Shown: piece after piece, positions 10,750 through 15,052 of the stretch
How positions within the stretch are numbered: position 1 is the first letter of the stretch
Layout of the letters: each line of letters opens with the position of its first letter
DNA from: Arthrobacter agilis
Lineage (GTDB): Bacteria > Actinomycetota > Actinomycetes > Actinomycetales > Micrococcaceae
Reading direction: 5' to 3'
Assembly (NCBI RefSeq): GCF_030816075.1
Contig: NZ_JAUSXO010000001.1
Span: 1,550,001 to 1,614,000, forward strand
Length of the DNA stretch: 64,000 bases
Program-made: the position numbers and the translations under genes
The notes under the pieces: model-generated
Told to the model about the DNA's origin: nothing
The model's input: only the letters and a program-made list of their open reading frames with translations
Database searches by the model: none

Positions 10750-13248
10750 TCAGGCCGGCACGATGTTGACCAGCTTCGGCGCCCGCACGATCACTGTGCG
10801 GATGCCGCGACCGTCCAGCACGCGCTGCACCTGGTCGCTGGCCAGCGCGAGTTCGCGCAGTTCGTCCTCGGCGATGTCCGGGGACACCGTCAGGCGGTCA
10901 CGCACCTTGCCCTGCACCTGGACGACGGCGACGACGCTCTCCTGCGTCAGCAGGGCGGGATCCACGACGGGCCAGCCCGCCGTGGCGACCGTCGCCTCGT
11001 GGCCGAGGCGGTTCCACAGGTCCTCGGCCGTGTACGGCGCGAATAGGCTCAGGAGGACGGCGACGGCCTCCGTTGCCTCACGGACGGCAGGATCCGCTCC
11101 CCCGGCACCGGAGTCGATGGCCTTCCGCGTCGCGTTGACCAGCTCCATGAGCTTCGCGATGACCACGTTGAACTTGTTGGCCTCCATCAGCTCGGCGGCG
11201 TCGGAGACCGTCCGGTGCGTCACCGACCGCAGCGCGCGGTCCCCCGTCGCCGGGTCGGTACCGACGGCGCTCGTCACGTCGTTCCCCAGGCGCCAGGCGC
11301 GTGCGAGGAACTTCGCGGAGCCGGACGGCGAGACGTCCGCCCAGTCGACGTCGTCCTCGGGCGGCGACGCGAACACCATGGTGAGGCGCACGGCGTCGAC
11401 CCCGAAACGGTCCAGCTGCTCGCCGAGGTCCACGCCGTTGCCGAGGGACTTGCTCATGGCCTTGCCCCCGTTGAGGACCTGGCCCTGGTTCAGGAGGGCG
11501 CTGAAGGGCTCGGTGAAGCCCACCATGCCGAGGTCGAAGAGCACCTTGGTGAAGAACCGGCTGTAGAGCAGGTGCAGGATGGCATGCTCCACGCCGCCCA
11601 CGTACTGGCCCACGGGCAGCCAGCGGTTCACCGCCTCCGGATCGAACGGCGCCGTGTCCAGGTGCGGGTTCACGAAGCGCAGGTAGTACCAGGACGAGTC
11701 CACGAAGGTGTCCATGGTGTCCGTGTCGCGGGTCGCCGCGCCGCCGCACGAGGGGCACGGCACGTTGACCCATTCCTCGACGGCGGCCAGCGGCGAGGTG
11801 CCCTTGGGCGCCAGCGCCTCGCCGCGCAGGCCCTCGGGGAGCGTGACCGGCAGCTGGTCGTCCGGGACCGGCACCTCGCCGCAGGACGGGCAGTGGATGA
11901 TCGGGATGGGGGTCCCCCAGAAGCGCTGGCGGGAGAGCAGCCAGTCGCGCAGGCGGTAGTTGACGGTGTGCGTGCCCGTCCCCTGCTCCTCGATGAGTTC
12001 GACGGCGCGGGCAATGGCCGTCGCCTTGTCCAGGCCGCTCAGTTCGCCGGAGTTCACGAGCGTGCCCGCGCCGGTGGTCGCGATACCCGTCTCCGCGGCG
12101 TCCTCCGCGCCCGTGTCGACGACGGTGCGGACCGGCAGGTCGAAGGTCCGCGCGAAGTCGAGGTCGCGCTGGTCATGGGCAGGGACCGCCATGATGGCGC
12201 CGGTGCCGTAGTCGGCCAGCACGTAGTCGGCGGCCCACACGGGCAGCTTCTCGCCGGTGAGCGGGTTCACCGCGTAGCGCCCGGTGAACACGCCGGTCTT
12301 CTCCCGCTCGGTGGCCTGCCGTTCGATCTCCGACAGCCCCTTGACCTGTTCGCGGTACGCCTCCAGGGCGTCCCGGTGCTCGGCGGTGACCAGCTCGAGG
12401 GCCAGGTCCGCGTCCGCGGCGACGACGAAGAAGGTCGCCCCGTACAGGGTGTCCGGGCGCGTCGTGAAGACCGTGACGTCCGACTCCGGCGCGCCGTCGG
12501 TCGCCTCGATGCGGAAGCGGACATGCGCTCCTTTGGAGCGGCCGATCCAGTTGCGCTGCATCGCGAGGACCCGCTCGGGCCAGTGCCCCTTGAGCTGCTC
12601 CATGTCGTCCAGCAGGCGGTCGGCGTAGTCGGTGATCCTGAAGTACCACTGGTTGAGGTTCTTCTTCGTGACCATGGTCCCGCAACGGTCGCAGGCCCCG
12701 TTGATGACCTGCTCGTTGGCGAGGACGGTCTGGTCCTTCGGGCACCAGTTCACCGGCGAGTTCCGGCGGTAGGCGAGGCCCTTCTGGAAGAACCGGACGA
12801 ACAGCCACTGCGTCCAGCGGTAGTACTCGGGGTCGGAGGTGTGCAGCCGGCGGCTCCAGTCGGCGCTGATCGCGTAGCGCTTGAAGGAGTGGGCCTGCGT
12901 CTCGATGTTCGCGTACGTCCACTCCGCCGGGTGGGCGTTGCGCTTGATCGCGGCGTTCTCGGCGGGCAGGCCGAACGAGTCCCAACCGATCGGGTGCAGG
13001 ACGTCGAAGCCCTTCTGGCGGTAGTACCGCGCGGCGACGTCGCCCATGGCGAAGGCCTCGGCGTGCCCCATGTGGAGGTCACCCGAGGGGTAGGGGAACA
13101 TGTCGAGCACGTAGCGGCGCTCACGGCTGCCGTCGTCGGCAGGGGCGAATGCCTGGAGCCGGTCCCACACCGCGGGCCACTTCGCCTCGATGGCGGAGAA
13201 ATCGTAGGTGTCCTCGTCCGGCTGCGCGGCCTCGGGATTGATGCTCAC
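10750..13248 (-). CDS. leuS: Leucyl-tRNA synthetase
   Basis: 832 residues from GTG 13248 ([17 protein letters not shown]). The class I HIGH-type motif is in [15 protein letters not shown]. The editing (CP1) domain contains [17 protein letters not shown] appears as [11 protein letters not shown]. The C-terminal anticodon-binding region ends [18 protein letters not shown]. The enzyme charges tRNA-Leu and edits mischarged products. In-frame codons upstream of 13248 are open but belong to the leader, so the GTG preceding the conserved N-terminus is chosen. Expression is likely controlled by the attenuator at 13332-13417. Confidence 0.95.
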
Positions 13249-13331: not shown

Positions 13332-13354
13332 AAAAGCCCCTCACAGGGAGGGGC
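13332..13354 (-). terminator. Intrinsic terminator in the leuS leader
   Basis: On the minus strand a 7-bp stem GCCCCTC/GAGGGGC (13354-13348 with 13342-13336), with a 5-base loop, is followed at once by TTTT. It lies between the leader peptide and leuS, so read-through is needed to express leuS. Confidence 0.75.
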
Positions 13355-13355
13355 C

Positions 13356-13379
13356 GCCGCACGGAGGATACCGTGCGGC
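13356..13379 (-). promoter_or_regulatory. Pause/anti-terminator-control hairpin of the leuS leader
   Basis: A perfect 9-bp stem GCCGCACGG/CCGTGCGGC with a 6-base loop starts at the leader peptide stop codon and ends two bases before the terminator stem. A ribosome stalled on the Leu codons would cover its 5' arm. Confidence 0.65.
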
Positions 13380-13405
13380 TATGTAAGAAGGAGGGCGCGA
13401 GGCAT
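13379..13405 (-). CDS. leuS attenuator leader peptide (MPRALLLT)
   Basis: Nine codons including stop: ATG CCT CGC GCC CTC CTT CTT ACA TAG. Three consecutive Leu codons, two of them CTT (unusual in a GC-rich genome), lie directly before a hairpin and an intrinsic terminator, upstream of leucyl-tRNA synthetase. This is the classical layout of ribosome-mediated attenuation: poor charging of tRNA-Leu stalls the leader ribosome and changes the downstream fold. The ORF is far too short for routine gene calling. Its start is six bases after a -10-like TAAAGT, so it may be translated from a leaderless end. Confidence 0.72.
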
Positions 13406-13411
13406 GGCTTC

Positions 13412-13417
13412 ACTTTA
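13412..13417 (-). promoter_or_regulatory. -10 box of the leuS leader transcript
   Basis: TAAAGT on the minus strand ends six bases before the leader ATG at 13405. No clear -35 box is seen. Confidence 0.45.
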
Positions 13418-13461
13418 GCAGCGTGCGGCCGTGACCGCCCCGCGGGAGGCCCGATCATGCA

Positions 13462-13505
13462 GAGGGCACGTCCGGTCCGTCCTGCGACGGACCGGACGTG
13501 CCCTC
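13462..13505 (-). terminator. Strong terminator hairpin after glpK
   Basis: A perfect 20-bp stem (13462-13481 with 13486-13505) with a 4-base CTGC loop begins 30 bases after the glpK stop. No U-tract follows, typical of actinobacterial hairpin terminators. It insulates the glp genes from the leuS leader. Confidence 0.8.
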
Positions 13506-13534
13506 CCGGCACGGCCGGATACTGCCGGACGGTG

Positions 13535-15052
<1,518 letters not shown>

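Follow-up and report, generated by a model that had tools for sequence, protein, structure and literature searches.

A short interval upstream of leuS in Arthrobacter agilis raises the question of whether this gene is controlled by a ribosome reading a leucine-rich leader peptide, and of how the two hairpins that follow the leader might act on each other. We analyzed the locus within a 64,000-nucleotide stretch of the genome (hereafter the window), by comparison of leuS upstream regions and by modelling of RNA folding with a ribosome placed on the leader. The analyses give good support for a real attenuator, and the puzzle it presents is how its two hairpins act on each other. Its parts are collected in Table 1. 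The order given in the original prediction, namely a TAAAGT box, 6 nt, an eight-residue leader, a 9-bp hairpin, a 7-bp hairpin, TTTT and then leuS, was confirmed in full at this place.

Table 1. Features of the leuS leader and neighbouring genes in the window.
Feature	Position	Strand	Basis or remark
-10-like box TAAAGT	13417-13412	minus	sequence; six bases before start codon
ATG start codon of leader	13405-13403	minus	sequence
Leader ORF including stop TAG	13379..13405	minus	sequence; eight-residue peptide
Regulatory Leu codons CTC CTT CTT	13393-13385	minus	last CTT at 13387-13385, near-invariant
Stop TAG of leader	13381-13379	minus	sequence
Hairpin P1, GCCGCACGG/CCGTGCGGC	13379-13356	minus	9 perfect pairs; folds and covariation
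Single-base linker between P1 and T	13355	minus	sequence
Terminator hairpin T, GCCCCTC/GAGGGGC	13354-13336	minus	7 pairs, 8 with a G-U
U-tract TTTT	13335-13332	minus	sequence; four T only
leuS, leucine--tRNA ligase (regulated gene)	10750..13248	minus	GTG start at 13248; leuS_bact TIGR00396, E 3.8e-290
Glycerol kinase (glpK), upstream neighbour	13535-15052

P1 of the window begins with the G of the TAG stop codon. Folding of the window leader revealed that P1 and T fold together and abut, with a free energy of -39.8 kcal/mol (z -4.06 compared with dinucleotide shuffles; as good in 1 of 200 shuffles). A Rho-independent terminator before leuS was predicted by sequence and fold from the stem and TTTT, the U-tract being weak. 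A full sigma-70 promoter was looked for at the leader and not found, only the -10-like box being present. The spacing of this box would match a leaderless transcript with its 5' end at the start codon, and on that basis transcription is predicted to start at the A of the ATG (13405). For the homologous leader of S. lividans, a leaderless start is reported from RNA-seq in the relevant passages of PMC8079986. No Rfam match above the gathering score was identified in the window and only sub-threshold matches lay near the site; the parts of the leuS element are nevertheless sharply defined. The leuS fragment of the window was 96% identical to that of Arthrobacter ruber, the nearest named species among the genomes found, and 92% identical to that of A. 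agilis. The interval between glpK and the leader also contains a long near-perfect hairpin without a T-run (at about 13460-13507), which is probably the glpK terminator.

A pattern search of leuS loci yielded 60 distinct elements, of which 57 were aligned and three outliers (L029, L050 and L076) were left out. Because the pattern fixes TAGCCG, CGG, CCCCT and GGGGTTT and limits the linker, the constancy of these features is in part a product of the search; the pattern sets no condition on the start codon, the -10 box, the Leu codons or the upper part of P1. An ATG or GTG start codon was positioned exactly 24 nt before the TAG in 55/57 aligned family elements, and a TANNNT box exactly 6 nt before the start codon in 50/57. 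The basal GCCGC/GCGGC of P1 was conserved in the aligned elements, while its upper part covaried and differed in length, and T was almost invariant across all 57. Five of the nine P1 pairs had changed on both sides, and 95.3% of cells were paired over both helices, a level reached in 0/500 shuffles (57 sequences). Alignment with leuS upstream regions of other Micrococcaceae, a check suggested for the original prediction, thus gave 57 elements that align with the layout kept.

A covariance model searched against the genome of the window returned one strong match (E 5.6e-19); the next two (E 3.3 and 5.3) look like ordinary terminators. Homologous loci without the Leu codons or the terminator had been named as evidence that would count against an attenuator, and here the answer was mixed. 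On the supporting side, 79 of 149 genomes of the family, in 18 of 32 genera, had a match (E<=0.01; window genome included), and each of these 79 elements precedes leuS on the same strand, at 38-162 nt from the leuS match. On the other side, 70/149 genomes had no match to the model at the same threshold, and leuS was found in 148 of the same 149. Judged from these matches, the element is common but not universal in the family. Within the class, 121/345 genomes and 49/127 genera had matches (E<=0.05), and a phylum-wide draw gave matches in 17/296 genomes (E<=0.001), including 3 that belong to other classes. The known range of this kind of leuS attenuator, so far a few Streptomyces, thereby extends to about half of the family genomes drawn and a third of the class genomes drawn. 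When 67 class loci were read one by one (68 examined; a subset of the class matches), the downstream region contained a leuS match in 49 and none in 17, with a contig end in 1 (tblastn, weakest E 6e-9). Among 42 pattern-negative leuS loci, 20 matched the covariance model at E<=1, including L009, L024 and L034, and 22 did not; the leuS loci examined from Kocuria, Rothia and Micrococcus had no model match at E<=1.

The position and identity of the leucine codons were analyzed in a set of 107 leuS elements. This set left out L176 and L163, which are without a full helix, and L112, which is the window itself; L150 was counted even though its contig ends before leuS, so 106/107 rest on a leuS match. 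The last Leu codon, two before the codon that enters P1, was CTT in 102 elements, CTA in 2, CTC in 2 and CTG in 1. It was held at a fixed distance from P1, which begins five bases after the CTT, and the two codons preceding it were mostly CTC or CTG. Within leuS genes, CTT made up 37/719 Leu codons (about 5%; 36 family segments), and 0/71 in the leuS gene of the window. One tRNA serves both CTT and CTC, reading CTT by wobble, and a slow codon at the decisive place fits the preference for CTT. The stop codon was a TAG at the foot of P1 in 68 of the 107 elements and lay inside P1 in the other 39, at the same place in 36 of these. With the stop at the foot of or within P1, a ribosome that finishes the leader would open P1. 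Five closely related leaders of Glutamicibacter type (L037, L040, L042, L043 and L046, two labelled Glutamicibacter and three Arthrobacter) were observed to have one Leu codon, the rarer CTA, at codon 7; their P1 and T sequences differ from the rest and the 1-nt linker is kept.

The same layout was also identified before other genes. Ten of the 17 non-leuS class loci were typed on protein fragments, as 4 ilvB, 4 cimA, 1 leuA and 1 without a family; L180 and L167 are partial matches with the leader outside the matched part. The codons of the ilvB (acetolactate synthase) leaders were a mixture of Ile, Leu and Val (ILVV, ILVL and ILLIV, among others), and the leuA (2-isopropylmalate synthase) leader had a Leu run. 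At the cimA (citramalate synthase) loci, assigned by TIGR00977 on fragments, three or four Ile codons stood shortly before the TAG in 3/4 (L162, L173 and L179), and the fourth, the partial match L167, starts too late for such codons to be visible. An in-frame start within the match was present in only 1 of the three Ile leaders (L173, GTG). We consider the elements with Ile runs a candidate isoleucine attenuator of cimA. The genome of the window itself has the same hairpin layout before ilvB (G000:C1, L186; ilvB 1905900-1907588, minus strand), with the leader MQPEPVVVVLIQRVA. This leader reads ...VVVVLI..., with CTT ATA as its last two regulatory codons, and P1 directly abuts a terminator with seven T; a -10 box at the expected spacing before it was looked for and not found. 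Before leuA, the same genome has a leaderless-looking leader with a GTG start, MRAQLTLLRCRGEAI. The regulatory codons thus change with the downstream pathway, and this observed match of codon to pathway is the best evidence that the codon run is the sensor. The comparison therefore strongly supports a leucine attenuator of leuS, as originally proposed, with the response to tRNA charging as its prediction.

Measurement of the spacing between the two hairpins revealed a P1/T linker of 0, 1 or 2 nt in 4, 87 and 16 of the 107 elements, respectively, with a P1 span of 19 to 63 nt. Among leaders picked without a hairpin rule, the longest upstream stem was positioned 0-2 nt from T in 56/66, or in 49/66 when ties with longer linkers were disallowed; shuffles reached the observed stem length near T in 405/3300 trials. 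In the window, P1 and T share no bases. Since P1 ends one base before T with no base in common, P1 cannot work through a classical exchange of partners.

To compare folding with and without the ribosome footprint, as had been suggested for the original prediction, a ribosome was positioned either at the last Leu codon or at the stop, with footprint offsets of 10, 12 and 15. This modelling used 106 elements, the set of 107 minus L147, which contains N. At offset 12, the median number of expected P1 pairs was 8.0 with the ribosome on the last Leu codon and 0.8 with the ribosome on the stop (n=106). The corresponding values were 10.0 and 2.5 at offset 10, and 5.1 and 0.0 at offset 15, where the wide footprint would already open about half of P1 from the last Leu codon. 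In the model, then, ribosome position changes the RNA structure, and P1 is the main structure to change. T folded with a mean probability of 0.99 and 0.98 in the two ribosome states (106 elements), and because T folds in both, equilibrium folding alone predicts no switch.

These data can be combined in a mechanism. The window element is probably a ribosome-mediated transcription attenuator of leuS in which P1 forms or does not form according to ribosome position and, when formed, blocks T by proximity. A 70S ribosome would load on the 5' end at the leader ATG. With ample Leu-tRNA(Leu), it would pass CTC CTT CTT to the stop and its front would cover the 5' arm of P1; P1 would then stay unformed, T would fold freely and transcription would end before leuS. 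With scarce charged tRNA(Leu), the ribosome would wait on the Leu codons, above all on the slow CTT at codon 7, its mRNA entry would lie at about the first base of P1, and P1 would form. We infer that P1, its helix separated from the foot of T by one base, could not enter the RNA exit channel, that T would fail to close its lower pairs in time, and that RNA polymerase would read on into leuS. The most likely direction of control is that leuS is on when charged leucine tRNA runs low.

Another way to couple the ribosome to T is a classical attenuator with a mutually exclusive antiterminator and terminator, as a 2005 survey described for Streptomyces leuS and as proposed for C. glutamicum ilvBNC. 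In the survey, the leuS leaders of Streptomyces are assigned to the classical attenuators, with an antiterminator and a terminator (PMC1262725); for C. glutamicum ilvBNC, transcription is reported to start one base from the leader ATG and mutants to support a two-hairpin overlap (PMC11857589). Despite these precedents, we regard this explanation as improbable for the window element, in which P1 and T have no common bases; the linker measures 0-2 nt in 107/107 aligned elements. Modelling pointed the same way. Capture of the T 5' arm, defined as its pairing with upstream RNA before the T 3' arm is made, was 0.67-0.71 at offset 12 in stalled E. coli trpL, leuL and hisL, used as positive controls, with the limits that hisL did not separate the stalled and stop states (0.54-0.68 at the stop) and that leuL separated them only partly at offset 12 (0.32). 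With the same script and the ribosome stalled at the last Leu codon, capture exceeded 0.5 in 0/106 leuS elements at offset 10 or 12 and in 2/106 at offset 15; with the stall two codons earlier, it did so in 0/106. Compared with the E. coli controls, the modelled leuS leaders thus lack an antiterminator that shares bases with the terminator; the original prediction had remarked on the apparent absence of an obvious antiterminator pairing, and the modelled elements bear this out. When the ribosome sits at the stop, capture of the T 5' arm by the freed P1 3' arm is weak (mean 0.20-0.21; above 0.5 in 7-10/106), and this modelled effect runs against the direction of control proposed above.

P1 could instead be mainly a roadblock or pause hairpin, delaying either the ribosome at the last Leu codon or RNA polymerase, so that timing alone decides the fate of T. 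A ribosome waiting on the CTT would have its mRNA entry close to P1, which starts five bases further on, in keeping with this reading, and a pause role has been proposed for the first hairpin of C. glutamicum ilvBNC (PMC11857589). Such a role would not account for the constant 0-2 nt between P1 and T alongside a P1 span that ranges from 19 to 63 nt, and we judge this reading unlikely, if the strongest of the alternatives. Less probable than either of the preceding readings is a double terminator, or a P1 that stacks on or helps T, with leucine sensed otherwise or the control reversed. In its favour, the two hairpins fold together side by side and might stack, T is slightly disturbed in the model once the P1 3' arm is free, and terminators of neighbouring hairpins are described (PMC8355165). 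Against this stand the fixed distance of P1 from the Leu codons and the stop codon that touches or lies in the 5' part of P1 in 107/107 elements, an arrangement that suits a structure meant for opening by the ribosome; for a synthetase gene, moreover, it would make little sense to terminate more often when leucine is short. An ordinary terminator region with a chance short ORF is extremely improbable. Short ORFs with Leu runs do arise randomly and the T hairpin resembles other terminator-like places of the genome, but the conservation across genera of the ORF, codon choice, start-to-P1 distances and leuS synteny already contradicts this explanation. Blocking of T by a neighbouring P1 accordingly remains our preferred reading. 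If this step is true, attenuation needs no base competition and a hairpin beside the terminator suffices, a simple design that is testable in vitro without ribosomes and that would apply to the ilvB and cimA leaders too.

Candidate antiterminators of other kinds were considered and set aside. Pairing of the Leu codons with the T 3' arm (CUCCUU/GAGGGG) was seen by eye to suit some codon choices only, and not CUUCUGCUU; no conservation was found either for P1 lengthened outward into T, checked by eye, or for a captured T 5' arm, checked by modelling. A possible extra element, the conserved GTGTGTCC that follows the U-tract, was also considered. Since GTGTGTCCGG or GTGTCCGGG occurs at two unrelated terminator-like sites of the genome, GTGTGTCC is tentatively read as a local terminator habit, and the count of sites of this type in the window was no more than chance.

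The closest published case is LeuL2 of S. lividans, described in PMC8079986 as a leaderless peptide, MRAVRLLLSEPR, followed by a hairpin and U-stretch before leuS. The window element resembles this Streptomyces leuS attenuator (S. lividans TK24, S. coelicolor and S. avermitilis) in its place directly upstream of leuS on the same strand, its predicted leaderless peptide, its run of three Leu codons, its hairpin and its U-stretch. Moreover, the model built from Arthrobacter-type elements finds the Streptomyces type too, with the exact LeuL2 peptide MRAVRLLLSEPR in L146, L151 and L154. The two types differ in that the window stop TAG lies at the foot of P1 after 8 residues, whereas the Streptomyces ORF is three codons longer and its TGA lies inside the P1 5' arm. 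The window element therefore belongs to the attenuator kind known from Streptomyces. Leaderless compactness is normal in this group; its description as unusual in the original prediction does not hold, since in Streptomyces lividans the leuS, leuA, trp and ilv genes are reported to be preceded by leader peptides of the leaderless type (PMC8079986). P1 and T do not overlap in the Streptomyces sequences either, which suggests that the label of 'classical attenuator' used for Streptomyces leuS in PMC1262725 is at odds with them.

More distant systems share single features. The three-hairpin attenuator of C. glutamicum ilvBNC (ilvB-II motif) likewise has a near-leaderless BCAA leader ORF, a terminator and an upstream hairpin controlled by the ribosome; there, however, the antiterminator takes three terminator bases (GCC), according to the part of PMC11857589 that treats it, and in the window element none are shared. 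The actinobacterial LEU element of leuA also has a Leu-rich leader, but its Leu codons pair with the leuA Shine-Dalgarno sequence and a typical terminator is absent, as far as the passages on it in PMC1262725 and PMC8079986 go. E. coli leuL, trpL and hisL have in common with the window element a leader peptide rich in the regulatory amino acid and a terminator before the structural gene; they differ in their longer leaders and in a computed antiterminator that captures the T 5' arm, which the window element is without. These E. coli leaders start at a Shine-Dalgarno sequence. E. coli leuL uses four CTA codons, and CTA is rare in E. coli.

New here are the CTT at a fixed place, the abutting of P1 and T without an antiterminator that sequesters T, and the same layout before ilvB and cimA. 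In the top-ranked, mostly non-subscription literature, which here included PMC10272879 and PMC13236596, neither a leuS attenuator from Micrococcaceae nor an isoleucine leader of cimA nor a non-overlapping antiterminator was found described. A wider reading, which we put forward tentatively and with less confidence than the mechanism for leuS, is that across much of the class Actinomycetes the BCAA genes and leuS may be under a second type of ribosome-mediated attenuator without base competition, in which the terminator would be blocked sterically, at the RNA exit channel, by a hairpin 0-2 nt away from it. Sensing in such a design would fall to one slow codon at a constant spacing, CTT in the case of leuS.

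Several individual loci departed from the common form. In L009 and L024, CAG stands in place of the TAG and the ORF continues into P1, with the element otherwise intact. The leader of L052, MKPQ, is four codons long and contains no Leu, and L041 has a leader and terminator with no comparable P1 in the fold; both are possibly decayed versions. A scaffold labelled Sporosarcina beigongshangi (L067) carries an Arthrobacter-like leuS (80% identity over the fragment) together with the element, a probable case of contamination or mislabelling. Finally, one actinomycete genome (G401) has two leuS-like genes, each with its own element (L147 and L148).
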